From Platanthera guangdongensis (lineage: Eukaryota > Streptophyta > Magnoliopsida > Asparagales > Orchidaceae): 64,000 nucleotides of DNA. The stretch lies in contig CM077152.1 in assembly GCA_039583875.1 (NCBI GenBank), forward strand, positions 20,063,538 to 20,127,537. The letters are read 5' to 3'. Each line of letters begins with the position of its first letter. The stretch's first letter is position 1. Shown here one piece after another: positions 1,018 through 64,000 of this stretch. The notes beneath the pieces were generated by a model. The model made no database searches. It was not told the DNA's origin and saw only the letters and a program-made list of their open reading frames with translations. The translations under genes were made by a program, and so were the position numbers.

Positions 1018-1189
1018 CGTAAAGAGAGGCCTCAAACCTTGTATATACTTCTTGAATGAATAGTTACAAATATACATCCACTTATATAGGAGAAGAATGA
1101 GGAGAGAAATCCTAATACAAGATGTGAGACTAATAAAAGAAGAGAGAAAGAAGGAGAAAACATAGGCCCTTAATTGAGCTTTTCTAACA
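1018..1189 (-). repeat. 3' LTR of copia A
   Basis: 172 bp, nearly the same as 6263-6434. The outer terminal dinucleotide has mutated from TG to CG on the plus strand. It is preceded on the coding strand by a purine-rich tract. Confidence 0.93.
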
Positions 1190-1490
1190 CTCCCCCGCAA
1201 GCTGGAGCGTACAAGTCGTAGGCACCAAGCTTGGATAAAAACTGATAGTATAGCGGCCTGGAGAGAGCTTTCGTCAGGATGTCCGCAACTTGGTCTGTAG
1301 CAAGAACATGCTCCAAATCTATCTTCTTTAACTGAACCTTTTTCCGGATAAAGTGACAGTCAACTTCGATATGCTTTGTGCGTTCGTGAAAAACCGGATT
1401 CTTGGCAATATGAATTGCTGCCTGACTATCACAAAATAAGGTCGCCGGAGATGAGAGACGAACACCCAGGTCTCCCAGAAGTCCCTCAAG

Positions 1491-3757
1491 TCAGGTTAGC
1501 TCGGAAACAAGCGCAACCATAGCCCGGTACTTGGCTTCAGCAGAAGAACGCGCAACCACAGTCTGTTTCTTGATACGCCAAGTTATGAGGTGTCCACCAA
1601 AGTAAGTACAAAACCCAGTTGTGAAGCGCCTATCATCAATAGATCCTGCATAGTCAGTGTCAGAATACGCGACAAGAGATAGAGATGTGGATGACTTGTA
1701 CACAAGTCCTTGTCGGGGGCGCTCTTGAGATATCGAAGGATGCGCTTGACAGCTTGAAGATGAGATGTCCGAGGAGCATGCATGAACCGACTCACGACTC
1801 TCACAGCAAACGAGATGTCCGGTCGAGTTACCGTAAGGTAGATCAGCTTCCAAACCAAGCGCCTGTAATATTCCGGATTTGTAAGCAGCTTGTCAAAGTC
1901 AGAGCTATGGGCCGAGAGCTTGTGATTTGCGTCCATAGGAGTCTCCGCAGGTTTGCACCCAGAATAACCGGCATCATGAAGGAGGTCCATACAGTACTTC
2001 ATTTGAGATAACACAAGACCATCAGAGCGTCGTGCAACCTCGAGCACAAGAAAATACCGAAGGTTGCCCAGATCTTTGGTCTGAAAGGCGGAATTTAACT
2101 GCTCCTTGATCTGTTGTATTCCTGTCGTGTCATTGTCAGTAATCAGGATATCATCAACGTAGACCAGAAGAATCACAGTCCCGGTTGACCGGTGTCGGGT
2201 GAAGAGAGAAAAATCAGCCGAGCTCCGAGTGAAGCCACTAGCACAGACAACCTTACTGAATTTTTCAAATCACGCGCGCGGGGACTGTTTGAGACCAGAA
2301 ATGGATTTCCGAAGGTGACATACCAGAGACTCCCCCGTGGTCTCAAATCTGGGAGGTTGCTGCATATAAACCGTCTCATGTAGATCGTCGTTGAGGAAGA
2401 CATTCTTAATATCCAGCTGATAAAGGAGCCAGTGACGATGAACAGCTAAGGAGAGAAGAACGCGGACGGTGTTCAATTTGGCCACGGGAGAGAGGTTTCC
2501 TCGTAATCAAGGCCATGTTGCTGAGTAAAGTCTCGTGCCACGAGGCGGGCCTTCAGACGGTCAATTGTGTCATCCGCCGCATGTTTAATAACAAAGACTC
2601 ATTTGCAGCTAACGGAGGCGTGGCCTGCAGGAAGAGGAACCAGATCCCAGGTCTGGTTAGCACAGAGAGACCGCATTTCATCGTTCATGGCTGCTCGCCA
2701 CCCTGGGTGTTGAAGCGCCCCCTGCACAATGTTGGGAATAGAAATAGAGGAAAGAGAGGTGGCAAATGCGTAGAGAGGCGGCGTCAGCCGATGGAGAGAG
2801 ACGTAGTTGGCCAAGGGATGAGCTGTAGATACGGGAGCTGGATCTGTCGTAGCCGAGGGATCGCTGGTAGCGGGGAGCTGGTGCACGGGAGCATCCTTGG
2901 ATGGGCGACGAGAGTAGACACAGATAAGAGGTGGAGGAACCCGAGGAGGGGCATTGTGAGAGGAGGAAGAAGCCTGCAGAGAAGATGGCATGACTAGTAC
3001 GGCACGCCGAGGAAGAGAAGGAGCAAAAGACGAGGTGGGGCAAAGTAAGTGGAAGGGCTGGTTTTCACAGAAGGTGACATCCGCAGAAACGACCAGCTTG
3101 CCTTCCGAAGGAGAGTAACAGACATACCCCTTTTGAGTCCGGGAGTAGCCAACAAAAATATACTTGGCGGCCCGAAGAGCAAGTTTGTCGGAAGGAGAGC
3201 CAAGAAGATGGACATAACAAACACACCCGAAGATCCGCGGTGTGAGAGAAGTGGGGTTTCTGGAGGGATAGAGGAGTTTGATTGGTGAGGCAAAATTAAG
3301 CACAGACGAGGGAAGGCGGTTGATGAGATGACAGGCGGTGAAGAAAGCAATGTTCCAATATTCGATTGGAACGTGCATTTAAAACATAAGTGAGCGCGTC
3401 ACATCGAGAAGATGTCAATTTTTTCGTTCTGTCACCCCGTTTTGCTGAGGAATATACACACATGAAGTTTGATGGATGACACCAAACTCGATGCAGAGAT
3501 TGGAGAAGGTGCGACCCATATACTCGCGAGCATAATCAGTGCGAAGGACTTTGAGGGGGGTGTCGAACTGCGTACGCATCTCAAGTAAGAAGGCGTGAAA
3601 CATAGAGGTAAATTTAGTTCGATCATGTAGTAAATAGAGTCACGTGGTACGCGAGTAATCATCAATAAACGTGACAAAATAGCGAAAGCCAAAAATACTG
3701 GGGACTCTATAGGGACCTCATACATCAGAATGAACTAAAGATAAAGGAGTACTACTC
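1491..3757 (-). pseudogene. Copia A integrase, reverse transcriptase and RNase H, frameshifted
   Basis: The rest of pol is spread over several frames. Integrase core and C-terminal parts lie at about 3603-3415 (HQTSCVYIPQQNGVTERKN) and 3378-2599 (LINRLPSS, FVGYSRTQKGY). RT lies at 2485-2270 (YQLDIKNVFLNDDL, GLKQSPRA) and 2176 onward, with the catalytic box LLVYVDDIL. RNase H reaches 1491 (SYSDTDYAGS-like and SSAEAKYRAM). Several frameshifts separate these blocks, so the copy is not autonomous. Confidence 0.85.
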
Positions 3758-5308
3758 CTAGTATAGACATGGGGAAGGAAGAACGATGCTGTTTGTCGTA
3801 GATACAAGATTCACAAGAGAACTCCTGTAGAGGAACATCAGGGAGAGCCCGCTTGAGAATCGGAAGGGGAGCATGCCCAAGGCGGTGATGTCAATCAACA
3901 GTGGAGACGCAGAGAGAAGAGTGGGTGGGATATCCAAGATGTACAGCCCATTCAACAGCTGCCCCTTACCAATGGTACTCCGGGTGCGGCGATCCTGCAT
4001 AAGAAAAGAAGAAAGTGAAAAGGTAATGCAACAATCAAGGTCGTTTGAAAGACGAATAACAGACAATAAATTGAAAGGAGATCCCAGAACATGAAAAACC
4101 GAGGAAAGAGAAAGGGTCGACGTAATCTTAAGAGCAGCGGTGACAGAGACGGGTAGGGTGTCACCGTTGTCCACAGTGATGCAAAGAGGATGAGGCGTTC
4201 GTAGGTACTCTGTGGGCTTCTGGGAGGTAATATGGTGGGTAGCGCCGGAGTCAACGATCCAGCAAGGACTACGAGAAAGACAGGTTATTCCTTCCGCAGA
4301 AAAGGACGCAATGGAGCCGGAGGAGCGGCTGAGGGCACCCTGAAGCTGTTGGAGTTGGATGCGGAGCTCATCAATGTCTTGGCGGGTAGTGGGGGCCGGA
4401 TCAGTGGCAGAAGACCCAGTGGGAGCCGGAGTAGCAGAGGTAGTAGCAGTAAGGTGAGGAGGTAAACCGTGCTTGCGGTAACAGGTAGGCTCAAGATGAT
4501 TATCCCGACCACAGTAGGTGCATTTCATAGAAGAGTGACCACCACGTCCTCGTCCCCGAGACGGGGGTGCCCCCCCCCCCCGAGTGGAAGATCCACGAGT
4601 AGGAGGAGTCGGAAGGAGAGGCTGCTGAAGAAGAGCCGAGGCAAAACCAGGAGGACCCTCGGAGGGAGGCGTGACTTTTAGTAGCATGGAGCAGACATCT
4701 GGCATTGAAGGAGTTGTGGCGGAGGATAGAATCTGGGTCCAAACACTATGCAGGTGAGGAGGAACTCGAGACATCATCATGGCGATGGCGACAACTTCTT
4801 TCTGGTTCCGTTGAGTGGCTAGATCGATAGTAGGAGTCTGATGTTGAATCCAAGCCTCTGCCAAACTCTTAGCCTTAGCCACAAAGGAGAGCATATTGTC
4901 AGGAGCACCCGCGACAAGATTCTGAAGATCGAAAATGATATCATATAGGTGTTGTAGGCTGTCATGGACAGAGTAAAAAGAGTGAAGCTCCTCCCACATG
5001 GTCTTAGCCGTGTCATGATACATGGTCATCCTGTAGGGCTCAGTGTCCATAAAGTTGAGAAGTCGGGACTGGACTCGACCATCATCGCAAAGCCAGTCAT
5101 TGGAGGGAGCAGTTGGAGTATCGCAGGTCAAGTGATGAAGAAGACCCTTCGTCTGCAGAACCCGACGAACCGAGTGAACCCACTCAACGAAATTCTTTTT
5201 TCCAGTTAGAGAGATAGTAGTAATCCGTAACTCGTCACAGAGTTCGGAAGCTGTGGCAGCCGCACGGGCTGGTGGAGCAGAAGTAGCAGCGGAAGTATCG
5301 GAAGCCAT
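3758..5308 (-). pseudogene. Copia A gag, zinc knuckle and protease
   Basis: An open frame of 516 codons begins at 5308 with MASDTSAATSAPP. It holds a copia-type Gag core, a CCHC knuckle (CTYCGRDNHLEPTCYRKH) after a GRGRGG linker, and an aspartic protease with the active site kept as WIVDSGATHHIT. It would form the capsid-like particle and cut the polyprotein. The frame stops near 3758, before the integrase core, so full Gag-Pol cannot be made without repair. It is the longest open copia frame in the window. Confidence 0.85.
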
Positions 5309-6262
5309 GCGCGGCCAGCAGAAGAGAGCGGGCGGTTAGAATAGGTAGTCGCACGGTCTCGGCGGACACACCAGCGACCAGGAGATCGCGACCAGAATGT
5401 GACTAGGAGAAGGAGGCCGAAGTGAGAGGGAGAAGTCGGCAGAGAAGATAGTCGCACGGTCTCGGCGGGTACACCAGCGACAAGCGGGGTCGCGACCAGA
5501 TGCGGCTAAGAACAGAGAGGAGAGCGCTAGCGACAAGGCAAGCCGCAGGATGCGAGTTGATAGAGACCGCGGCGGACAGGACAACGGGTAGGAGAAGCCG
5601 CGAGAAGAGGTCGCGAGTAGCAGAACTCAAGCGACAAGATGTGAGGAGAAGCTGGTCGCGGCGAACTGAAACAGTCCGCAGGAAGGAGAGGCAGGTCGCG
5701 GAGAGCAGGAAAGACGGGTCGTGGCAAACAGGAGAGGCAGGTCGCGGCGAGCGGGAGAGGCCGCAGCGGATAGAAAGAGGCCACGCGGGAAGAGAAAGTA
5801 GAGGAGAAAGTGGACCCACGTGAGAGAGGATTATAAAAGGAGATATGGTAGGAAGGAAGGAGGAGGTGGAAGCCACAAGAGAAGTAGAGTTGTAGGCTAA
5901 GGGAAAGCCGCGCGGACAGAGAGAAAAAACAGGCCGCAAGAGTCCGTGGCTATCGATAAGGAGCCCGAAGAGAGACAAATGAGGTCGCGATGACCATCAA
6001 GGGCAAACCGCGCAAACCGCAGCGAGTTGTCCAATAAATGGGGCCCACGGGGGCGCCTATAAAAAGAGAGGAGAAGGGAGGGAGGAGGGAAACAGTGGAG
6101 CCACATACGGGAAGGCGGGTAGGAAAAAGAGACCACAGAGAGGCCGCGAATAGGACCGGAGACCGCCAAAGAAGAGCTCGGGCGGTTAGGAAGAGGGAGA
6201 CCGCGAGAGGCCGCAAACAGAAAACCGTAAACCCAAGGAAGAGGTCAGTGGCTCTGATACCA

Positions 6263-6434
6263 TGTAAAGAGAGGTCTCAAACCTTGTATATAATTCTTGA
6301 ATGAATAGTTACAAGCATACATACACTTATATAGGAGAAGAATGAGGAGAGAAATCCTAATACAAGATGTGAGACTAATAAAAGAAGAGAGAAAGGAGGA
6401 GAAAACATGGGCCCTTAATTGGGCTTTTCTAACA
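6263..6434 (-). repeat. 5' LTR of copia A
   Basis: 172 bp. Read on the minus strand it begins TGTTAGAAAAGC and ends TTTACA, directly followed by the initiator-Met-type primer site TGGTATCAGAGC. Confidence 0.93.
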
Positions 6435-34502: not shown

Positions 34503-34507
34503 AATAA

Positions 34508-35149
34508 TGTTGAAGCCAAAAATTGGCCTCAACGAGAGTTCGGACCTTGGGGTGTAGCTAACACCTACTTCTCTCAAACCTTGACTCCTGACAAGCGACT
34601 AAGAACCTGGAACTGACCCTAAGCCTCAGCTGGGAGGTCCCTCCACTAACACAGAAGATCTCTGAGCGTTTTCCCTCCAAAGCCAATTGCTGGGCTAGGA
34701 ATACCTCAGAAAGCACTAGAAGGACTTAGGAAAATATGAAAAACTTGCCTTCTGAGGTATCCTGTGGGTCATATTTATAGATTTTCAGTATCTTGTCTGC
34801 CAACAGCGTAATTTCGTTGTGCAAAAAGAGTTAACTGCAGACCCGAGGGTATTCTGGTAATTTTACACGAGGATATTCAGGTACCTTTACCCGAGGGCAA
34901 TCTGGTAATTTTACCCCCGGCCCGCACTGGGCGGAAGCCCTTCCGCCGCTCTGTAAGTTTTTCGTCTGCCCCATACCAACCTTGAGAGGATCCCGCCTAC
35001 CGGGCGCAAGCCCTCTCGCATGCCCTGGGCGGGAACCCTCTCGTCCACCTGCTAGTTGACTCGGCCTCTAGGTTTAAGCTAGCCTAAGGGTGACCCAACC
35101 CTGGTCCTTTGGGAATCTAGGTTCCACCCAACGAATATGGGGTTGTACA
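34508..35149 (-). repeat. 3' LTR of the Tat element
   Basis: 642 bp, TGTACAACC to GGCTTCAACA on the minus strand. TATA-like 'ctataaatatgac' lies near the middle. It has about three copies of a 24-bp 'gggtattctggtaattttac' unit, against five or six in the other LTR. Confidence 0.92.
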
Positions 35150-36620: not shown

Positions 36621-36625
36621 GAAGG

Positions 36626-38005
36626 TGATAACTTCTCAATTGAAGTTATCTAGTCCACTAGTTTTACATAATCGTTGTGATAAATGAGAAGAAATGATTT
36701 AAATTAGTATAAATGTCCATAAATTAATAGTCATTTTATTCACGCTTAATTAACTTATTTTGCCTATGTTTTTCTTATTAGAAATGACGTATAAATCGAA
36801 CCGGCAAAGTAAGTGCAGGAATTATATTTTGGCTGTGCAGTTGTTACAGAAACCTGTTGCAGTTGTTATAACAAGTCTGGGCGGTTTTAAAATTCGAATT
36901 TCGAATTTTGCGCCAAAACTAAATATGGAAGGAGACATCTATTGGAAAAGGGCTGCTCGTTTTTAACAGGAGATTTTCATTCCTAAAGGGGACGAAAAAT
37001 TAGAGAGAGGAGAGGGACCTTAGAGCCATCATCTTGGAGAAGAAGAAGAGGAAGAACGGCTAGGGTTTGGACGCACCGGCGAGAAGGAAGAAGGGTCTAA
37101 GCGAGATCTACACGCATATTCCTGCAGCATTAAAACTCATTAAGCATGTTTAGTAAGACTTTCTTTGTTGTGTGGTTTCATTCCTCTAGCATGAACTAAT
37201 TGTATGGATCTTGTATGATGTGAGTACCTTGTTTTATTGTGATGATTTTACTTTAAATTTATTTTATGGTTGTTTGAATCGCTATCTTTATTGGGTTTAT
37301 GTTCCTTGTCAGTGGAAATTTTTGAGCAAGCGTTCATCTTCTAATTAGCATGACGAGATTCGAGAGAGGAGTTATGCTAATTTAGGGTTGAATCCGTTAT
37401 TCTACGCGGCGAGATTCGAGAGAGGAGTTGCATAGTTTCTAATTCAAAATTCCATCTTTTTACTGCGCTGCAAGATTCGAGAGAGGAGTGGCGTAAGTGT
37501 GACATAAACTCCAATATAGCGTCAAGAGAGAAAGAGATTTCCTCTTGAGTTAGCATCATTGATTTTTGCTCGTCACATTATTTACTTTCCACCTAAGTTA
37601 GAGTTAACTAGGGGAAATTGGGTAACGGAATTCTGAAATCGAGAGACGATGAATTTCAACTTAAAATCGATGCAAGATAGTAATGAAGAGAACCATTAAA
37701 TATCACTAGAAATCTCATCACAATAGGCAAGAGAAAACAACATGCAAGATCATTTCTCCAACCCTGATAAAAGTATTTTCTAAGAATCGTGTTTAGTTTT
37801 ATCATTATTAGTTTAAGTTTTCTTTATTATAAAATTAACCCACTAAAGAAAAAGTATCTCACTTGCATTCACGGAACGGGTAATGCTAGTAATTACGAGC
37901 ACTAACGTTGCACTTCCTCTAGGAACGATAACTCAACTCATCATTTTATTACTTGATTCGACACGTGCACTTGCGTGATTACGTAGATCCATTTTGGCCG
38001 TATCA
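36626..38005 (+). repeat. 5' LTR of the Athila-type element
   Basis: 1,380 bp with TGATA..TATCA ends. It contains three spaced copies of 'agattcgagagaggagt' at about 37349-37480. Confidence 0.88.
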
Positions 38006-38151
38006 AGTTTTTGGTGCCGTTGCCGGGGAAGCGCAACTGGTTTAGTGTTTTATTTCTCGTAATATTAGTTAAATCTTAGTAGTTGGAGATCAAGTATTTT
38101 GTTTTTAATTGTTTTTCTTGTCTTAGCACTTATTTCGAAGCTTTGTGGTGT

Positions 38152-40275
38152 ATGTCAAGTTATAGAAACCCGGAATTGTTGTCACTAAACTTAGAAATAG
38201 AGCGCACATGTAGACAAAATCGAAGAAACCGTAGAACGGAAAACATTGATCATCCTGAGATGGATAATAACGGACAACAAGTTATCGATGACATAGAGGG
38301 TCACGTGAACCATAACGGGCAAGCGAATCCAAATAATCAACACGTGCCACCTCGAATGACATGTAGGGATTACAACACACCTTTTAGGGGAGGTTTGCAC
38401 ACGAGTATTGCCCGACCACCTATAGAAGCTAATAATTTCAAGATGGACCCTTTCATTATGCAACAAGTTCAACTAAATAGATTTGGGGGTCTTAACCATC
38501 AAGATGCAAACTCTCATTTAAAAACCTTCTTAACAATATGCGACATGTTTAAGGCAAATGGTGTGTCCGCAGACGCAATTCAACTAAGAGCATTTCCTTT
38601 TTCCTTAGAAGGTCGAGCAAGGGATTGGTTGGACTCTTTACCCGATGATGCTATCACCACATGAGCCCAATTAGAAGATAAATTTTTAAATAAGTATTTT
38701 CCACCTTCTAAGACGGCTAAGTTGATTAGAGATATCACTACATTTATACAACATCATGGGGAGACTCTTTACGACGCATGGGAGCGTTTTAAGGAGCTGT
38801 TAAGAAAATGTCCACACCATGGGTTAGCACAACACCAACAAGTATCCACGTTTTACAACGGGTTGCAAACCGCAACCATGATTCTAGTAGATGGAGCCGC
38901 GGGAGGTTCCCTAATGAAAAAATATCCGGAAGATGCGTACGCCATTTTAGAAGATTTAACGTCTAATAATTATCAAACATATGAAAGACAAGCAACAAGT
39001 AATCCAGCAGGGGTGCACCATGTAGATCAAATCACATCCTTAGCCGCCGAAATAGCATCACAATTCAACTTGATTAACAAGAGGCTAGATTCATTATCTA
39101 ATCCTGCGTCTAGTGCACCACTAACGGTGAAACAATTAAATCTATTAACGGAGGAAGTCAACTATATAGGAGGACAACAGAGGCAAATTCCACCGGGATT
39201 TGCTAATCATTATCACCCCGAGTGGCGACATCACCCTAATTTCTCTTGGAGAAATAATCAAGGAGTGAACCAATCGCCGGGATTTCATCAAAATCTGAAT
39301 CCCACCCAAGGGAATCCTCAAAACAATCCTAGGAAGTTAACTGAAGAAGTTATTGTGGGGATGTTCCAAAAGAATGAGTCTAGGATTGGAGGGATTGAGT
39401 CATCTCTAAGATCTTTAGAGACCACATTGGGGCAATTAGCAACCACGTTAAGCAAAAGGCCGATTGGATCATTACCTTCGGATACCATGTCTAACCCAAT
39501 AAGAGAGGAACCTCCTAATCATTGTAATGCAATCGCTTTAAGGAGTGGGGTGGAAATTCAAAGTGGAGATGGGTTGTTAGAAAAAGCTAGAGATGACGAG
39601 AGGAAGGAACAAGGAAATGAACCAAGGGGGATGCAAGAAGAAGAGCCCGTAGAAGTTAAGGAACCGGAGATAGTTGAAGTCCAACCACTAAATAATAAAA
39701 AGAAAGAAATCATCTATCCTCCACCTCCCTTCCCATCTAGATTAGCGAAGACAAAGCTCGATAAGCAATTCCAAAAGTTTATGGAAATCTTTAAGAAATT
39801 AACTATAAATATTTTGTTTGCTGAGGCTCTTGAACAGATGCCTAGTTATGTCAAGTTTATGAAAGACATCTTATCCAAGAAGAGGAAATTCGTTGAGAGG
39901 GAGATAGTCGCCCTAACGGAAGAATGTAGTGCAATATTACAAAAGAAACTACCTCAAAAATTAAAAGATCCAGGTAGCTTTACAATACCATGTTTGATAG
40001 GAACAACATTTTCAGGGAGAGCATTGTGTGACTTGGGAGCTAGCATCAATCTGATGCCCTTATCTATTTACACAAAATTAGGCCTGGGAGAAATTACACC
40101 AATATCTCTTACTCTACAGTTGGCTGATAGGTCTTTAGCTTTTCCTAAGGGAATTTTTGAGGATGTACTGGTTAAGGTGGATAAATTCATCTTTCCAGCC
40201 GATTTTGTGGTGCTAGATATGGATGAGGATAAGGAAGTTCATATTATTCTAGGAAGACCATTTTTAGCCACATGA
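38152..40275 (+). pseudogene. Athila-type gag and protease
   Basis: The likely start is MSSYRNPELLSLN at 38152. The Gag core has NNFKMDPFIMQQVQLNRFGG and RARDWLDSLPDDAITT. A TGA at about 38662 replaces the expected Trp, after which the frame runs on open to 40275. The protease near 40020 reads FSGRALCDLGASINLMPLSI, with the catalytic Asp present, and ends HIILGRPFLAT before a TGA. No CCHC knuckle was seen, as is common in Athila elements. Confidence 0.85.
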
Positions 40276-42084
40276 CGCACACTTATAGATGTACAAACGG
40301 GAGAGCTAACAATGAGAGTCAACGAAGATGAGGTAACCTTCAATATCCTTAAGGCCATGAAATTCCCTGAAGATAGAGAAGAATGCTATTTAATTAAAGA
40401 GGTTGAGGTGCCCTCTAGGTTGACACACGGGGAAGAAGATTTTGATCATAGATTGTTAGACATCTTAGTTAACGACGAGGGTGAAGAAGATAAAGTAATG
40501 GAAGAAGTTGTTCACATACTCAATACATGTGAAGGGTTGCCACCATATAAGAGTTTTGAAGTGATAACTAGGACAAGCGAACCAAGAATGATAAAACCTT
40601 CTATCATTGAATCACCTAAGTTGGAATTAAAATCACTACCTGAACATCATAAGTATGTATTTCTAGAGGAAGATAACACTCTTCCGGTCATAATCAATGC
40701 ATCATTAAGAATGGAAGAAAAGTTAAAATTAATTGAGTTACTAAGTGAGTTTAAGGAAGCGATTGGTTGGACTCTTGCCGACATCAAGGGGATTAGCCCA
40801 TCCATCTGTATGCACAAAATTCTATTAGAAGATGGGGAGAAAGGATCCATCGAACATCAACGAAGGCTTAGTCCTCCAATGAAGGAGGTGGTGATGAAGG
40901 AAATCATTAAGTGGCTGGACGCGGGCATTATTTATCCTATTTCAGATATCAAGTGGGTAAGCCCGGTGCATTGCGTACCAAAGAAGGGAGGGATAACACT
41001 TGTTAAGAATGAAAATAATGAACTTATACCTACTAGAGCTGTCACGGGATGGAGGATATGTATTGATTATCGAAAATTGAACAAGGTGACTAGAAAAGAT
41101 CATTTTCCGTTACCATTCCTTGACCAAGTCTTAGATAGATTGGCAGGTGACCAGTATTTTTGCTTCTTGGACGGATATTCAGGATACAACCAGCTTATGG
41201 TTGCACCAGAAGATCAAGAGAAGACAACATTTACATGCCCCTTTGGTACATTTGCATTTAGGAGACTACCATTTGGATTATGCAACGCTCCCGCCATATT
41301 TCAGCGTTGTATACTGGCAATACTATCCGACCTCATCGCTCGAGGCATTGATCCGGCAGAGTATGGAATCGAGGTATTCATGGACGATTTTTCCATCTTT
41401 GGTAAATCGTTCGATGCATGTTTGGCATGTCTGGGGAGGGTATTGGCCCGCTGTGTTGAGACTAACTTAGTACTGAACTGGGAAAAGTGCCATTTTATGG
41501 TACGTGAGGGCATTGTATTAGGACATAAGGTATCGAGTCAAGGACTAGAAGTGGATCGAGCAAAGATTGAAGTGATAGAAAAACTTTCTCCGCCAACGAA
41601 TGTCAAGGTCATTCGTAGTTTCCTCGGTCATGCCGGATTCTATAGGCGGTTCATTAGAGATTTTTCAAAAATCACAAAGCCTTTATGCAATTTACTCGAG
41701 AAAGATACACCTTTTATTTTCAATAACGAGTGCTTAGAAGCATTTCAAATGTTAAAAGAAAAATTAATCTCGGCACCCATTGTCAAGACACCCGATTTCT
41801 CATTACCCTTCATTCTCTTGTGCGATGCGAGCAACTATGCGGTGGGAGCCGTGTTGGGGCAAATGCACGACAAGGTTTTCCACACCATTCATTATGCTAG
41901 TAAGACTCTTATTAACGCCCAAGTGAACTACACAACTACAGAAAAGGAACTCCTAGCGGTGGTTTTTGCGTTCGACAAATTCCGCGCTTATCTGATTAGT
42001 TCTACAGTCATAGTTTACACGGACCACGCGGCAATCCGATATCTAGTGGAGAAAAAGGAGGCTAAACCTAGGGTTATTAGATGA
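40276..42084 (+). pseudogene. Athila-type reverse transcriptase and RNase H
   Basis: A 590-codon open stretch runs from 40312. RT motifs are [53 protein letters not shown] and the catalytic [10 protein letters not shown]. RNase H has [16 protein letters not shown] and [20 protein letters not shown]. The frame is opened upstream by a TGA at 40273 and closed by a TGA at 42082. Both positions lie inside conserved text, so they are recent lesions. Confidence 0.88.
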
Positions 42085-42780
42085 GTTCTACTCCTCCAAA
42101 AGTTTGATTTTGAGATCAAGGATCGTAAGGGGGCAGAAAACCCGATTGCCGACCACTTATCGATATTAGAGAATGTGTGTGAGAAAGACGTACACGTTGA
42201 GATTAAGGAAAGTTTCCCAGATGAGAGTTTACTTGCAGTCACAGAAGGGAGCATCCCATGGTATGCTGATTTCGTTAACTATATAGTTAGCAAAGTTTTT
42301 CCACCGGATTTTAGCTACCAACAAAGGAAGCGATTCATTCATCAGGTGAAGTTTTACCTATGGGATGAACCGTATCTATTTAAAATTTGTGCTGATCAAA
42401 TTATTCGTAAGTGTGTGCCCGAGATGGAAGTTCATAGTATTCTAGAAAAGTGTCATGCATCACCCTATGGAGGACACCATAAGGGAGACCGGACAGCGAG
42501 GAAGGTTTTAGAGTCAGGATTCTATTGGCCAACCTTATTCAAGGACTCTCATCACTTTGTAGGACAGTGTGACCGTTGTCAACGGGTTGGAAATCTTCAG
42601 CGGGGAGCAAGCATGCCCATGAATGGAATCCTTGAAGTAGAAGTCTTTGATGTATGGGGGATTGATTTCATGGGCCCCTTTGTCAACTCCGATGAAAATT
42701 TATATATTTTGCTAGCAGTAGACTATGCGTCGAAGTGGATTGAGGCGATAGCCACCCAAAGGAATGATGCCAAGGTGGTG
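42085..42780 (+). pseudogene. Athila-type integrase, truncated
   Basis: Starts with FDFEIKDRKGAENPIADHLS. The zinc finger reads CHASPYGGHHKGDRTARKVL and CDRCQRVGNLQRG. The first part of the catalytic core follows (VWGIDFMGPF, LLAVDYASKWIEAIAT). It breaks off just after DAKVV, so the rest of the D,D-35-E core and the C-terminus are missing. Confidence 0.85.
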
Positions 42781-43013
42781 CAACAGGTTTCTGTAACAAC
42801 TGCACAGCCAAAATATAATTCCTGCACTTACTTTGCCGGTTCGATTTCTACGTCATTTCTAATAAGAAAAACATAGGCAAAATAGGTTAATTAAGCGTGA
42901 ATAAAATGACTATTAATTTATGGACATTTATACTAATTTAAATCATTTTTCTCATTTATCACAACGATTATATAAAACTAGGGGACTAGATAACTTCAAT
43001 TGAGAAGTTATCA
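42779..43013 (-). repeat. Inverted copy of the LTR start at the right end
   Basis: Reverse complement of 36626-36861, nearly identical. It joins the integrase sequence at a 'tgca'-like microhomology and ends exactly at the GAAGG target duplication. Confidence 0.92.
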
Positions 43014-43425
43014 GAAGGCGAGGTCGGGGCCGATAGCGTTGGGAGCAGTATTGAACCTCGTAGGGTCTCGCATTGCCTACCCCCAACCTCTCAGCCTACC
43101 CTTCCCGCGTTGTACCCCCAAAACATTCGCAATTTTATTATTATTATTGTTTTTAAGGCTCTCGCCCAGCGAGACGCCCTTGATACTTATTTATATGTTC
43201 TTTGCTATTTTATCTATCCTGTCGAGTGCCTGATTTTCGTACTTTTTCTGTGTTTCGTACATGTATACTGCCTTGCTCTTACCAGGGACCGCTCCCGAAA
43301 GCTTTTCATCCTTTGCAGGTGCGAGAGACGTCGACGAGGCGGGGTGGAATACGAAGAGTCAACTATCAAAATTCGCTAACCGCACTTCCGCCGCCCAGAA
43401 GATCCATAATGATTACTTCTCTTTC

Positions 43426-45929: not shown

Positions 45930-47080
45930 CCAGTTGCCCCGTCAGCTAGGTGAGAACCTGACGGCGGGAGTGAACCTTAATTTAGTTATTCTTCCTTTCC
46001 GTTTCGTCACCGGGCGAGCCTTCAGCCCGGCCGGCTTGATGGGAGCCCGGTCAGCGGGCCCACCTGGTGCCACCAGAAACCACAAATCATATCCCTTTCC
46101 CCCCAAGCGAGCCTACGACCCTGCCAGCTAGTGAGAGTCTGACAGCGGGTCTACTCGGGGCCGAGTGCATCTTCCAGCCCTGCCAGCTAATGGGAGCCTG
46201 CGCAGCGGGATCCTCTCGGGGTCTTGCAAACTACCAACCTCTTTCCATTTCCCCCTAAGCGATCCTACGGCCCTGCCATCTAGTGAGAGCCTGACAGCGG
46301 GTCTACTCGGGGCCGAGTGCGCCTTCCAGCCCTGCCAGCTATTGAGAGTCTGACCAGCGGGATCTTCTCGGGATATTCCCTTACCCCCCAAGCGAGCATA
46401 CGACTCTGTTAACTAGTGAGAGCCTGACAGTGGGTCTATTCGGGGTCGAGTGCGCCTTCCAGCCCTGTCAGCTAATGGGAGTCTGACAGCGGGATCCTCT
46501 CGGGGTCTTGCAAACTACCAACCTCTTTCTCTTTCCCCCCAAGCGAGCCTAAGACTCTGTCAGCTAGTGAGAGCCTGACAATGGGTCTACTCGGGTCCGA
46601 GTGCGGCTTCCAGCCCTGCCAGCTAATGAGAGCCTGAGCAGCGAGATCCTCTCGGGGTATTCCCTTACCCCCCAAGCGAGTCAACGACCCTGCTAGCTAG
46701 TGAGAGCCTGACAGCGGGTCTACTCGGGGCCGAGTGCACCTTCCAGCCCTGCCAGCTAATAGGATCCTGACAACGGGATCCTCTCGGGGTCTTGCAAACT
46801 ACCAACCTCTTTCCCTTTCACCCCAAGCGAGCCTACGACCCTGCCAGCTAGTGAGAGCCTGACAGCGGGTCTACTCGGGTCCGAGTGCGCCTTCCAGCCA
46901 TGTCAGCTAATGAGAGCCTGAGCAGGGGGATCCTCTCGGGGTATTCCCTTACCCCCCAAGCGAGCCTACGACCCTTCCAGCTAGTGAGAGCCTGACAGCG
47001 GGTCTACTCGGGGCCGAGTGCGTCTTCCAGCCCTGCCAGCTAATGAGAGTCTGAGCAGCGAGATCCTCTCGGGGTATTCA
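45930..47080. repeat. Tandem array between pol and the antisense ORF of the Tat element
   Basis: A two-part repeat. A unit of about 59 bp (core 'ccctgccagctagtgagagc' then 'ctgacagcgggtctactcgg') alternates with a longer related unit (same core with 'aatgggag', then 'gatcctctcggggt' and 'caagcgagcctacga'). The joint period is roughly 135-150 bp, repeated about seven to eight times; the first copies at 45930-46060 are degenerate. Its core also occurs in the array at 62281-64000. Confidence 0.88.
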
Positions 47081-47172
47081 AAATCACAAACTTTCTTTCC
47101 AATTCTCAAAAGAAACAAACATGAGACAATTCAATGAATTCATTAAAAAAAGAGTTACAATCTTACCACCCA

Positions 47173-52728: not shown

Positions 52729-52786
52729 GAGACTTGACTTGAGATTTTCCTGTATCAGCTACGGTCCACGCTCACCACACCGGAAA

Positions 52787-53502
52787 TGTTGAAGCCAAAA
52801 ACTGGTCTCAACGAGAGTTCGGACCTTGGAGTGTAGCTAACACCTACTTCTCCCAAACTTTGACCCCTGACTAGCGACTAATAACCTGGAACTGACTCTA
52901 AGCCTCAGCTGGGAGGTCCCTCCACTAACCCGGAAGATCTCTGAGCGCATCCCCTCCAAAGCCAATTGTTGGGCTAGGAGTACCTCAGAAAGCACTAGAA
53001 GGACTTAGGAAAATATGAAAAACTTGCCTTTTGAGATATCCTGTGGGTCATATTTATAGATTTTCAGTATCTGGTCTACCAACAGCGTAATTCCGCTGTG
53101 CAAAAAGAGCTAATTGCAGACCCGAGGGTATTATGGTAATTTTACCTGAGGGTATTCTGGTAATTTTACCTGAGGGTATTCTGGTAATTTTACCTGAGGG
53201 TATTCTGGTAACTTTACCCGAGGGCAATCTGGTAATTTTACCCCCGGCCCGCACTGGACGGAAGTCCTTCAGCCGCTTTGTAAGTTTTTCGCCTGCCCCA
53301 TACCAACCTTGAGGGGATCCCGCCTACCCGGGCGCAAGCCCTCTCGCATGCCCTGGGCGGGAACCCTCTCGCCTACCATGGGCGGGAACCCTCTCGTCCA
53401 TCTGCTAGTTGACCCGGCCTCTAGGCTAAAGCTAGCCTAAGGCTGACCCAACCATGGTCCTTTGGGAATCTAGGTTCCACCCAGGGAATATGAGGTTGTA
53501 CA
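52787..53502 (-). repeat. 5' LTR of the Tat element
   Basis: 716 bp. It is longer than its partner because of extra copies of the 24-bp unit at about 53124-53236 and a duplicated 'gggcgggaaccctctcg' block near 53355-53400. Confidence 0.92.
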
Positions 53503-55302: not shown

Positions 55303-55307
55303 GAAAG

Positions 55308-55496
55308 TGTTGGAAAAGCTCATATAACAAAGGGCCAATGACACATTCCTTTGTATTTTATTATTATTTTCTCTCATCTCTTTAGTCTCACATCATGTAT
55401 AGGACTTTCCTCTCTCTTTCTCCCTCCTATAAATATATACTCATACTTTGTATTTGATACTTGAGAAATTACATACAAGGTTCACGTTTTTCTACA
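55308..55496 (+). repeat. 5' LTR of copia E
   Basis: 189 bp, TGTTGGAAAAGC to TTCTACA, with TATA-like 'ctataaatata' at about 55430. Confidence 0.92.
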
Positions 55497-56648
55497 TGGT
55501 ATCAGAGCTCGCGGTCTCCTTGTCCGGCTAAAATTTTTTTTAGCCGCCTCTATCCGCGGTCTTCTTGCGGTCTCCGCGGCCTCCTTGTGGTCTGCCTTTG
55601 CCTCATACTGCAACCTCCTCGCGGTCTTCTTTTTCTACCCGCTCACCTGCTTGCGGTCTCGTTTCTTTCTCCTCCGTGGCTCCACCTTCTCTTCCCTTCT
55701 CCTCCCTCTTATAGACTTCTCCATTCTCTTACGTGGGCCCACTCCTCTTTGACCGGCGGCCTCTTCCGGTTTTTGTTTGCATGGCCTTCTGCTTTCCGTA
55801 GACTTATCTTGCACTATGGTGTTCCTGACGGTCTCCCTTGTGGTCCCTGCGGTCTGCTGGTTCCAAGGCGTTCTCTTTCTATCCGCTGCGGGCTCCCTTT
55901 TCTATCCGCTGCGGTCTCTTATTCTTGGTCGTGGCGTCTCTTGCCGCTGGTGCTTTGTTGTCGTGATCGCTGCAGAGTTCTCCTGTCTGATCTGCAGTCT
56001 CCTCCTACCATTACGGACCTCCTCTGTCCGCTTGGCTTGTCCTCTATCCGCTGCGGTCTCTTCGTGCGGCCTGCCTCTGTTCGTTGCGGTCTCTTCGCGT
56101 GGATTGTCTCTGTCTGCTGCGGTCTCTTCGCGCGGCTTGTCTCTGTCCGCTGCGGTCTCTTCGCGCGGCTTGTCTCTGCCCGCTGCGGCCTCCTTTCCTT
56201 TCGGGCTCTACACTTCGGTCGCGGCTTCTTTCTTGCCGCTGGTGCGACCACACCGTGACCGTGCGACCTGCAAACTTCTGCCTCGGCCTTCTCCTTCTCG
56301 TCGCGACCTCTCTGGTCGCCGTGCCTTCGTTCTGTTCCTCTGGGCTCCGCATTTTGGTCGCGGCTTCGTCCTTGCCGCCGGTGTGTTCACACCGTGACCG
56401 TGCGGCCTCGCATCTATTCGCGATGTCTCCCCTACTCGCGCGGCCTGCTCTGGGCTCCGCATTTTGGTCGCGGCTTCCTCCTTCCCGCTGGTGTGTTCAC
56501 ACTGTGACCGTGCGGGCTCGCCTCTGTTCGCGCGGTCTCTACTACTCCCGCGGCCTCCTCTCTGTCTGGGGTTCTTGCTCGTCTGGGTTGTTCGCGCGGC
56601 CTTCTTCTTCTGTTCGCTGGTCTTCTCGCCTAGCCGTTGTTTGTCTCC
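55497..56648 (+). repeat. GC-rich leader of copia E with a 33-bp repeat
   Basis: A 1.15-kb leader dense in 'ctgcggtctc' words. At about 56051-56185 a 33-bp unit 'gcggtctcttcgcgcggctt' plus 'gtctctgtccgct' is repeated about four times. The matching leader of copia A (5309-6262) has similar wording on the minus strand. Long open frames across it are low-complexity and not protein-like. Confidence 0.65.
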
Positions 56649-57300
56649 ATGGATTCTCCTTCTGACTCTCGGGGATGAGGTCGGGGTGGCCGGCTGCGAC
56701 CTAAGTGTTCCTTCTGCGACAAGGACGTGCACCTTGAAGCTACGTGCTATCGCAAGCATGGTCGTCCTCCTCGTCCGCTGGCCTCTGTTGCTATCACCGA
56801 CACCTCTACCCCTCGTACTAACCTTGATGAGGTTCGCCTTCAGCTCCAGCATCTCCAGGGCCTGCTCAGCCGCCCGCCTGCCTCGATTGCCTCCGCTGCC
56901 TCCATCTCCAATGAAGGTATCGCCTGCCTCTCCACTGGCACGTGATGGATTGTGAATTCTGGTGTTACTCATCATATCACCTCTGTTCGACCACCTCAGT
57001 ACTTGTCATCTCCTCATTCGAAGTACATTACTGTGGTCAATGGGGCAGTTGTCCCTGTCTCTGGCTGTGCTGATATTCTTCTCACCTCCTCGCTTTCCCT
57101 GCGCTCGGTTCATGTTCCGAGATCTCCATTCAATTTACTTTCTGTTGCTCGTCTCACTGCTGACTTACATTGATCTGTGACATTTACTTCTTCTTTTCTG
57201 ATACATGATCAGCAGACGCGGACTATCATTGGTAGGGGGCAACTGCAGAACGGGCTCTACCTTGTAGATAGCTCTCCTACTCTCCTCGCATCTTTCTCCT
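56649..57300 (+). pseudogene. Copia E residual gag knuckle and protease
   Basis: An ATG at 56649 gives MDSPSDSRG and a stop, then directly the knuckle text CSFCDKDVHLEATCYRKHG. The Gag core of roughly 300 residues present in copia A is absent. The protease site reads WIVNSGVTHHIT, with Asn in place of the catalytic Asp. Further stops lie at 56943, 57176 and about 57309. Confidence 0.82.
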
Positions 57301-57309
57301 CCGAGGATT

Positions 57310-59990
57310 GACATCGGCGTCTTGGTCATGCTCCTCTCCCTATCCTCCAGAAGGCTCTCCCCGATATCTCTCTTCCTGCTTTTCAGTGTGAAACATGTAT
57401 TTTTTGGCAAACAACCTCGTTCATCTTTTCCATCTCATTGTACTCGGAGCTCTGCTCCTTTTGTTTTGGTACACTCCAATATATGAGATCCGTACAAGAT
57501 TCCTAGTATTTCTGGCTACCGTTATTTTCTTACTTTTATAGATGACTATTCTCGCATGACATGGTTGTATCTCCTTCGTGATCGTTCTGAGCTTCCCCGC
57601 GTATTCCGGGCCTTCTTGGTTGAGACACACTCAATTCTCCGTGCCCATCAAAACTCTTCGCAATGATAATGCGTGCAGGTACACTGGCCATGATTTCGCG
57701 ACCCTCAGCTCTGAGTTTGGGGTAATTCACCAAACGTCTTGTGCTTATACCCCTCAGCAGAACGGTGTCGCGGAGCGTAAAAATCGGCATCTCCTTGATG
57801 TGGCTTGCTCTCTTATGCTTCAAATGCGGGTTCTTAAACCCTATTGGCACTTTGCACTTTCCACGGCCAGTTTTCTCATCAACCGTCTCCTGTTCTCCGT
57901 CCTCCACAATGCTACTCCGTTCAGCCTCTTATTTCCCTCCACTCCGGCCTTCTCGCTTACTCCCCGCATCTTTGGGTGCACGTGCTACGTTCACACCCTA
58001 GGCCCGTCTACGGACAAGTTGGATCCCCGTGCGGCCAAATATGTCTTTGTGGGCTATTCACGCACTCAAAAAGGTTGCGCGTGCTATTCACCCATTATCC
58101 GCAAGGTGACTATTTTTGCTAATGTCACCTTTCGGGTGGATCTTCCTTTTTTCTCTGCTCCGGATCCAGCACCTTTTACTGAGCCCGTCGTGCGCCCTGT
58201 CATACCTGTTCCTGAGCCCGTCGTGCACCTTTCTCCACCATCTCTCCCTCCTGCCCAACCTTCAGCTCTTCCCAAGCCGCCTGTCATCCAGGTCTATTCT
58301 CGCCGCTCTTCTCGTCTCGTTACCCCACTACAGTCGGCTTCAACCTCTGATGCTCCGCGGCTTACTGCTCCGACTCCAGTCTCCACCTTTCATCTCATGG
58401 CGAATTATGTCTCTCTTCATCCCCTCTCCACGCCACTTCGTCACTTTGACATATCATTATTCTCTATTTTTGTGCCTAATTCTGTGCAGGAGACTCTTCA
58501 ACATCCCGGCTGGCGGGCCGCTACGGAAGAAGAAATGACGGCCCTTTGGGCTAACCAAACTTGGGTCCTCGTCCCTTTACCTTCCGGTCAGACAAGTGGG
58601 TTTTCGTCATCAAACACGCTCCTGATGGCACCATTGACCGTCTGAAGGCCCGCCTGGTGGCCTGTGGCTTCACTCAACAACAGGGACTTGACTATGAGGA
58701 AATCTTCTCTCCGGTGGCCAAGCTCAACACCGTTCGCGTCCTTCTCTCAGTGGTCGTGTATCGCCACTGGCCCCTTCATCAGTTGGATATCAAGAATGCG
58801 TTCCTGAATAGCGATCTTCAGGAAACCGTCTACATGCACCATCCTCCCGGGTTTGAGACCACGGGGGAGTCTCGTGTGTGTCTTCTGAAGAAATCCATCT
58901 ATGGTCTCAAACAATCCCCCCGGGCATGGTTTGACAAGTTCAGTAAGGTTATTCGGGACATGGGTTTCACTCGGAGCTCAGCAGACGTCTCCCTATTCAC
59001 GCGACACCGGGCAAGAGGAACTGTTCTTCTGTTAGTTTATGTTGATGACATCCTACTTATTTAGGATGACTCGAAGGGGATTCAAGTGGTCAAACAACAC
59101 CTTAGCACCGTGTTTCAGACAAAAGACCATGGGCATCTCGCTACTTCCTCGGTCTTGAGGTCGCAAGACGTCCGGATGGACTTGTCCTCTCCCAACGGAA
59201 GTATTGTCTTGACCTCCTCAAAGACGCTGGCCAGTCTGGATGCAAGCCGGCAATTACTCCAATGGATGCAAATCACAAGCTATGTGCTCATGCCTCTGAT
59301 GCTGATCTGCTTCTCCAAAACCCGGAATACTATCGATGTCTTGTGGGAAAATTGATCTACCTAACGGTCACAAGGCCGGATATATCGTTCGTTGTTGGGG
59401 TTGTCAGTCGATTCATGCATGCTCCCCGAGTCTCTCATCTTCAAGCTGTTGAACGTATTTTTCGATACCTTAAAGCAGCTCCGGGTCAAGGACTGGTCTA
59501 CAAAACCTCCACCTCTATCCCAACATTGGTTGCATATTCAGATGCTGATTATGCTGGCTCCTTGGACGATCGGCAGTCAACCAGTGGTTTTTGTACATAT
59601 TTTGGAGGTCATCTCATTACATGGAAAAGTAAGAAACAAACAATGGTTGCTCGATTTTCAGCGGAAGCTGAATACCGATCGATGACATCAGTTGTCTCAG
59701 AACTCACATGGCTTGAAAGCCTCCTTGCTGATCTGGGGTGAAACTTCCCTCTTCTATTGCTCTATTTTGTGACAGTTAAGCGGTCATACACATAGCAAAG
59801 AATCTGGTCTTCCACGAACGCACGAAACATATCGAAGTAGACTGTCATTTTATTCGGGAGAAAGTTCAAATGAAGAAACTAGACTTAAAGCATGTTTCGG
59901 GCACTGATCAAGTTGTTGATATTCTCACAAAGGCTTTATAGAGTATCTTATTTTATCAGTGTCTGTCCAAGTTGGGTGCATATGACTTGT
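57310..59990 (+). pseudogene. Copia E integrase, RT and RNase H
   Basis: The integrase zinc region is degraded (57310-57400). The core runs 57578-58130 (TLRNDNACRYTGHDF, YTPQQNGVAERKNRHLLDVA, FVGYSRTQKGC). A frame change near 58600 leads to RT (FTQQQGLDYEEIFSPVAKLN, HQLDIKNAFLNSDLQETVYM, GLKQSPRAWFDKF, LLVYVDDILLI) ending in a stop at 59062. RNase H is at 59262-59741 (YSDADYAGSLDDRQS, SAEAEYRSM). The tail, with [17 protein letters not shown] text, reaches about 59940. Few lesions in RT. Confidence 0.85.
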
Positions 59991-60011
59991 ACGCTCCAGC
60001 TTGCGGGGGAG

Positions 60012-60201
60012 CGTTGGAAAAGCCCATATAACAAAGGCCCAATGACTCATTCCTTTGTATTTTATTATTATTTTCTCTCCTCTCTTTAGTCTCCACATCA
60101 TGTATAGGACTTTCCTCTCTCTTTCTCCCTCCTATAAATATGTACTCATACTTTGTATTTGATACTTGAGAAATTACATACAAGGCTCACGTTTTCCTAT
60201 A
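60012..60201 (+). repeat. 3' LTR of copia E
   Basis: 190 bp. Its first base pair has changed from TG to CG and its end from TACA to TATA; otherwise nearly identical to the 5' LTR. Confidence 0.92.
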
Positions 60202-62280: not shown

Positions 62281-62655
62281 GTCTCACCTCGAGATGGATT
62301 CCGCTTTCAGGCTCTCACTAGCTGGCAGGGTAGGTTGATCTCTCGGAGGGTGGGGTAGGTCTCACCTCGAGATGGATTCCGCTGTCAGGTTCTCACTAGC
62401 TGGCAGGGCAGGTTGATCTCTCGGAGGGTGGGGTAGGTCTCACCTCGAGATAGATTCCGCTGTCAGGCTCTCACTAGCTGGCATGACAGGTTGATCTCTC
62501 GGAGGGCGGGGTAGGTATCACCTCGAGATGGATTCCGCTGTCAGGCTCTCACTAGCTGGCATGACAGGTTGATCTCTCGGAGGGTGGGGTAGGTCTCACC
62601 TCGAGATGGATTCCGCTGTCAGTCTCTCACTAGCTGGCAGGGCAGGTTGATTGGG
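62281..62655. repeat. 78-bp tandem array, left block
   Basis: Five units of 78 bp, e.g. 'ggttgatctctcggagggtg', 'cacctcgagatggattccgc', 'tgtcaggctctcactagctg'. It ends at the LTR-like promoter region. Confidence 0.92.
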
Positions 62656-62666
62656 ATTGGGAAAAC

Positions 62667-62678
62667 TATAAATAGACT
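62667..62678 (+). promoter_or_regulatory. TATA box in the Tat-derived LTR
   Basis: 'actataaatagac' lies only about 15 bp right of the last repeat unit, so the array takes the place normally held by U3. Transcription would run rightward through leader copy 2. Confidence 0.5.
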
Positions 62679-63032
62679 CTTAGGGGTGCCTTGGAGGGCA
62701 TTACATTTTGAGCCACAGAAATCTCTTTGCTCTCTTCCTCCAAGGCACCTAGCTCAGCATTGGCTAGGGAGGGGGAGATTTCAAAGGTCTTCCGGGTGTG
62801 AGGTGGGACCTCCATGCTAGAGCCGAGGGTCTGTTCCTAGTTCCCCAAGTCTTTGGTATGTGACATTCCCCCGAGTGTAGTAGGTGTGAGGTCACCCCTC
62901 TTTTGGGACCCCGAACTCCACATAGGTCATTTTTGGCTTCAACACTTTTGGTGCGGTGAGCGTGGAGAGTGACCAGCACAGAAGATCTCGAGAGAGTGTC
63001 ATGGCTGGAGGTCAAGGAGGTAGTGATGGTGC

Positions 63033-64000
63033 GGTGAGATGGATTCCGCTGTCAGGCTCTCACTAGCTGGCAGGGCAGGTTGATCTCCCGGAGGGTGGGG
63101 TAGGTCTCACCTCGAGATGGATTCCGTTGTCAGGCTCTCACTAGCTGGCAGGGCGGGTTGATCTCTCGGAGGGTGGGGTGGGTCTCACCTCGAGATGGAT
63201 TCCGCTGTCAGGCTCTCACTAGCTGGTAGGGCAGGTTGATCTCTCGGAGGGTGGGGTAGGTCTCCCCTAGAGATGGATTCCGCTGCCAGGCTCTCACTAG
63301 CTAGCAGGGCAGGTTGATCTCTCGGAGGGTGGGGTAGGTCTCAGCTCGAGATGGATTCCGCTGTCAGGCTCTCACTAGCTGGCAGGGCAAGTTGATCTCT
63401 CGGAGGGTGGGGTAGGTCTCACCTCGAGATGGATTACGCTGTCAGGCTCTCACTAACTGGCAGGGCAGGTTGATCTCTCGGAGGGTGGGGTAGGTCTCCC
63501 CTCGAGATGGATTCCGCTGTCAGGCTCTCACTAGCTGGCAGGGCAGGTTGATCTCTCGGAGGGTGGGGTAGGTCTCACCTCGAGATGGATTCCGCTGTCA
63601 GGATCTCACTAGCTGGCAGGGCAGGTTGATCTCTCGGAGGGTGGGGTAGGTCTTCCCTCGAGATGGATTCCGCTGCCAGGTTCTCGCTAGCTGGCAGGGC
63701 AGGTTGATCTCTCGGAGGGTGGGGTAGGTCTTACATCGAGATGGATTCCGCTGTCAGGCTCTCAATAGCTGGAAGGACAGGTTGATCTCTTGGAGGGTGG
63801 TTAGGTCTCATCTCGAGATGAATTCTGCTGTCAGGCTCTCACTAGCTGGCAGGGCAGGCGTACCTCTCGTGGAAGTCCAGTTCCCTTTACTCTGATGACG
63901 GTTCCGTTGTCAGGCTCTCACTAGCTGGCGGGGCAGGCGTACCTCTCGTGGAAGCCCAGTTCCCTTTGCTCCGATGACAGTCCCGTTGTCAGGCTCTCAC
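63033..64000. repeat. 78-bp tandem array, right block
   Basis: About ten to eleven units of the 78-bp repeat to roughly 63850, then a related but different unit ('ggcgtacctctcgtggaag' then 'cagttccctttactctgatg') that keeps the 'tgtcaggctctcactagctg' core. It continues past the edge of the window. Confidence 0.92.

Follow-up and report, generated by a model that had tools for sequence, protein, structure and literature searches.

A Ty3/Gypsy retrotransposon of Platanthera guangdongensis with a U3 end at both termini inside an exact target duplication

Positions 36626-43013 of the window, by which we mean the whole 64,000-nucleotide stretch of the Platanthera guangdongensis genome analysed here, are occupied by an Athila-like Ty3/Gypsy element that consists of a full 5' LTR, a cut pol region and, as its right end, an inverted copy of U3. 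The exact LTR terminus TGATAAC stands at both outer edges in opposite orientations, and the pair is enclosed by GAAGG, read directly at 36621-36625 and at 43014-43018, just as the initial annotation of this DNA had it. A normal integrase product carries one U3 and one U5 terminus, whereas TGATAAC lies at both termini here; the element has a single LTR, with neither a 3' LTR nor a U5 end on its right side. A cDNA with outward-facing U3 on both sides would explain the exact termini and the duplication with no further events. We consider it likely that the element is a single integrase-made insertion of such a malformed cDNA, whatever the route by which the cDNA arose. The core of this idea, that integrase accepted a cDNA with two U3 ends, was already present in the initial annotation and stands as the best reading; what does not stand is the four-base junction homology ('tgca') attached to it, which native relatives of the element correct to TGC, or 3 bp.

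The left side of the element is complete. Its 5' LTR (36626-38005, forward strand, TGATAAC...GTATCA) measures 1380 bp by direct reading and by alignment with LTRs of the family, which agrees with the earlier description of a TGATAAC end followed by a full LTR. A hairpin with a 9-bp stem and a 6-nt loop can be drawn at the U3 terminus (36627-36650, forward strand), where the first 30 nt of U3 are the same in 35 of 38 family copies, and it is a possible candidate for a role in end recognition or self-priming. The primer-binding site (38012-38029, forward strand), read directly, begins 6 nt past the LTR end, and family copies read AGTTTTTGGCGCC... at this place. Six bases (38006-38011) thus separate the LTR from the primer-binding site and, given this spacer, more nucleotides would have to be trimmed from the native U5 end of the cDNA than from the U3 end. 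Downstream, a single gag-pol frame (38083-42781, forward strand), interrupted by three in-frame stops but by no frameshift ahead of the junction, encodes gag, reverse transcriptase (RT), RNase H, the zinc domain of integrase and the first part of its core. The truncated core (rve, 42646-42781, forward strand) scores 20.2 bits, under the family cut-off of 32.6. Here pol is interrupted inside the integrase core and gives way to the inverted U3 (42779-43013, reverse strand), with no 3' LTR beyond it, so that the inverted piece does occupy the place of later integrase and the 3' LTR, as originally described.

The order of domains, gag followed by RT, RNase H and a truncated integrase, is that of Ty3/Gypsy elements, as is the combination of LTR, primer-binding site, polypurine tract and short target duplication, the polypurine tract being present in relatives and missing from this copy. 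The lineage name Athila is carried over from the initial annotation as a putative assignment; among the 120 matches listed of 7968, no name states a lineage. Athila elements have an env-like gene downstream of pol, and the region after pol in which such a gene would sit is absent from this copy.

Several other repeats share the window. Direct repeats at 34506-35149 and 52785-53502, which are 83-84% identical and built on nearly the same 24-bp tandem unit, bracket the element and may be the LTR pair of an older host element. Related tandem arrays lie in opposite orientation at 46092-47082 and 62281-64000, with repeat units of about 133-152 and 78-79 bp, and two Copia-type elements, also in opposite orientation, occupy 1019-6434 and 55306-60199, their LTRs being about 171 and 190 bp long and 95% identical within each pair.

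To place the element among its relatives, the host assembly (4.25 Gb in 274 contigs) was queried with U3, and the best 40 of 674 candidates were scored; two of these were the element's own arms, and the other 38 were fetched for comparison. Among these 38, drawn from the best of the 674, 35 LTRs align over positions 1-1380, one aligns over 2-1380, and two end early, at 369 and 805. Identities range from 78 to 98%, and every one of the 36 that reach the LTR end closes with GTATCA. In family 3' LTRs a polypurine stretch, GGAGGTG, immediately precedes TGATAAC. An exact 5-bp duplication is the usual state in this family: it flanks all five of the same-element LTR pairs for which both ends were fetched (eight same-strand pairs are known), and four solo LTRs are likewise flanked by exact 5-bp duplications. 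Ten further 5' LTRs were traced downstream. Five of them proved to have a 3' LTR; the duplication was exact at four of these and differed by a single mismatch at the other. The remaining five showed no 3' LTR in the 9.7 kb examined, which lay roughly 6-16 kb downstream; three of these continue normally past the point that corresponds to the junction and two carry no element sequence there, and some of the five may have an aberrant right end. Separately, two of the 38 fetched LTRs, L024 (C19:128090078) and L054 (C2:187222433), are preceded by a polypurine tract and followed by a primer-binding site, and look like internal LTRs of tandem elements of the same family.

The junction itself appears to be unique to this locus. 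With a query of 120 nt across the junction, for which the best 40 of 597 candidates were scored, only one of the 40 places, this locus, matched from end to end. Eight native integrase places among the same 40 match up to 42781 and 31 U3 places match from 42779, and the two sets of matches therefore overlap by three bases, TGC (42779-42781), common to native integrase and to the inverted U3. The overlap was borne out at all five of the native integrase loci (out of eight) whose sequence was read; a longer homology was rejected, as native integrase diverges after TGC. Over about 1.56 kb, the element's integrase part shows 97.6-98.1% identity with the eight native loci, and a comparison of the integrase piece with viral contigs gave six pattern matches and no relatives. 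The initial annotation had proposed a genome search for further copies with inverted ends and intact duplications, and the best-scoring places of the genome are covered here. Since the junction occurs only here among the best 40 of 597, a multiplied family of such elements was rejected. Furthermore, 50 U3 places drawn from the best matches to this U3, a sample that yields no rate, contain nine U3 pairs closer than 20 kb, eight of them in the same orientation and 10.9-13.4 kb apart and one, the present element, inverted and 6.15 kb apart; no second inverted U3-U3 insertion was found among these nine pairs.

The relationship between the two arms bears on how and when the inverted end was acquired. 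The alignment proposed in the initial annotation, of the left arm (the first 236 bp of U3, 36626-36861, forward strand) with the reverse complement of 42779-43013, was run and upholds the claim that the right end is an inverted copy of this segment: 236 and 235 nt align at 97.9% identity, with four substitutions and one 1-nt gap, and the right arm stops precisely at the LTR terminus. Both arms carry T at U3 position 73, where all 38 other U3s (best of 674 candidates) carry C, which argues that both trace to one template. The arms differ at U3 positions 32, 42, 66, 130 and 167. It is the left arm that is odd at 32, 130 and 167, its T at 130 recurring in one of the 38 at a site otherwise split between C and A, and the right arm that is odd at 42 and 66 (the latter being the gap), with states seen in none of the 38 other copies. 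Four of the five differences are thus private to one arm and, to judge by this distribution, the arms look to have been identical at birth and to have changed separately since. The left LTR has 11 private changes in 1380 sites when set against 16 close copies, and the distance between the arms is 4/235; these values fit each other, and the right arm seems to be about as old as the insertion, few changes though there are behind the comparison. The unscored remainder of the 674 U3 candidates may include a parent that carries T at position 73, and the shared base would be equally expected had the right arm been copied from the left LTR at a later time.

Our favoured route to the two-ended cDNA, which we advance tentatively, is a polypurine-primed plus strand that jumped from U3 into integrase. 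The polypurine tract defines the start of plus-strand DNA in LTR elements, and priming there would accordingly set the exact TGATAAC end of U3. The plus strand would then copy some 233-236 nt of U3 and pause near the foot of a 12-bp palindrome, whereupon its 3' end, with three bases pairing, would move onto a sense strand inside integrase, either the second packaged RNA or plus-strand DNA. From there synthesis would continue as minus strand toward the primer-binding site, an ordinary second-strand transfer would complete the left LTR, and integrase would treat the two U3 termini like a U3/U5 pair and join them to the target. A point that counts against this scheme is that, for the left LTR to be completed, the particle would have to contain a further, normal plus-strand strong-stop DNA. 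The palindrome, TTGTTATAACAA (36863-36874, U3 238-249), is not part of the inverted copy and begins 2-5 nt past the U3 breakpoint, which lies at 233-236 with an uncertainty of 3 nt. A distance of 2 nt or less from the foot of a perfect palindrome of equal size holds for 1.4% of LTR positions (2.5% with short loops allowed), and part of the breakpoint interval exceeds that distance; the palindrome is a possible stall site noticed after the fact. Retroviral integrases can use U3/U3 pairs in vitro.

The jump may instead have run the other way, an alternative within the two-U3 cDNA reading that we regard as possible and somewhat less so than the favoured direction. A plus strand already in integrase would have switched onto plus-strand U3, offered either by strong-stop DNA or by the strand's own 5' end through fold-back self-priming, and run off its 5' end. 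An exact U3 end would likewise result if synthesis ran off the 5' end of a strong-stop DNA, and the same junction and arms are predicted; a slight argument for the favoured direction over this one is that the palindrome sits at the stall point of the former and not at the exit from integrase. Rather doubtful is the joining of two cDNAs before integration, in which a cDNA broken in integrase would have been end-joined to an inverted, broken U3 piece of a second. Such joining accounts equally well for the termini and the duplication, and the TGC microhomology at the junction suits it too, 3-bp microhomology also being usual in end joining. It needs two broken cDNAs, however, and the variant shared by the arms and absent from the 38 other copies (best of 674) demands that both came from the same parent. 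Both directions of the jump and the joining of two cDNAs lead to one and the same product.

Repair after insertion is less likely than a two-U3 cDNA, and we judge it improbable. On this account, a break in integrase was followed by loss of the 3' part, inverted copying of the 5' LTR from TGC, and a switch back at TATCA to the surviving end of the 3' LTR and its duplication. The initial annotation had held that no later event could leave an exact LTR end against an exact duplication, and this was too strong: native LTRs run from TGATA to TATCA and close with GTATCA, and a repair that copied in two steps could leave at TATCA just as it could enter at TGC. The T at U3 position 73 is expected here as well. 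Against this, the process involves two switches, and the second has to land precisely on the LTR terminus, when the sequences concerned (the reverse complement of the 5' LTR with 300 bp of flank, compared with this LTR standing in for the 3' LTR with 300 bp of flank) share 2753 matches of at least 5 bp, of which the terminus should be one. Moreover, the divergence of the arms is about that of the private changes of the left LTR, so any copying must have come early.

An assembly error is very improbable, given that the five differences between the arms make the right arm something other than a simple false palindrome of the left and that termini and duplication are both exact. Least probable of all are two separate elements in opposite orientation, one nested or adjacent, with a subsequent deletion and a fortuitous match as the duplication: tandem-like structures are known in the family (L024 and L054), but a 5-mer match between these flanks has a chance of about 0.0011-0.0012, and both arms carry the shared base at U3 position 73. 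A chance duplication was accordingly rejected at about 0.001, and two unrelated elements by the base common to both arms. Autointegration, whose product has an LTR terminus attached at an internal position of the element, was also rejected, for both termini face the host and the arm's inner end lies at U3 233-236.

Read as the insertion of a two-U3 cDNA, the element offers a natural test of whether integrase in vivo depends on a U3 end paired with a U5 end; in this instance a pair of U3 ends appears to have been enough. With due caution, we would read the locus as a natural instance of concerted U3/U3 integration by a Ty3/Gypsy integrase, acting on a cDNA that arose when a plus strand primed at the polypurine tract halted at a palindrome and resumed on a sense template as minus strand. 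LTR finders require direct repeats, so that further products of this kind may be arising without being noticed. We suggest pairs of U3 in opposite orientation between exact duplications as a searchable signature, which could measure the rate and the junctions of such reverse-transcription errors in large plant genomes and could separate errors made in the particle from later chromosomal damage.

A literature search, conducted mostly in journals that are free of subscription, recognised no inserted LTR element with two U3 ends, and passages from four further papers (PMC11302176, PMC2672092, PMC11624286, PMC2773423) say nothing on such elements. The nearest systems share some features with ours and differ in others, as far as the accessible portions of the respective papers describe them. 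HIV-1 proviruses with inversions or asymmetrical LTRs are presented as rearranged integrated proviruses (PMC9278108, PMC9238239), the asymmetrical LTRs being explained in one of these papers by a proposed transfer of strong-stop DNA to the second, deleted copy (PMC9278108); unlike the present case, those portions describe none whose right end is an inverted U3. Truncated EVD insertions in Arabidopsis mutants are internally deleted, and two of them have clear target duplications; their authors leave open whether they arose in the particle or after integration (PMC10462705). All are stated there to have two LTRs, whereas our element has no U5 end on the right. Tandem LTR-retrotransposon insertions of plants (PMC11899658) resemble it as single insertions with a target duplication and an aberrant LTR layout, but theirs is tandem and ours inverted. 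In the complex elements attributed to template switching (Sabot and Schulman, 2007; PMC1950507), three LTRs occur as direct repeats, the middle one common to two core domains. Like these, the present element is a proposed product of aberrant reverse transcription that went in as a single insertion, its outer ends similar and flanked by a 5-bp target duplication; unlike them as there described, it contains no internal third LTR and no second core domain, and has one LTR, no 3' LTR and an inverted second end. The element at 36626-43013 would add a U3/U3 form to the known aberrant products of retrotransposition.
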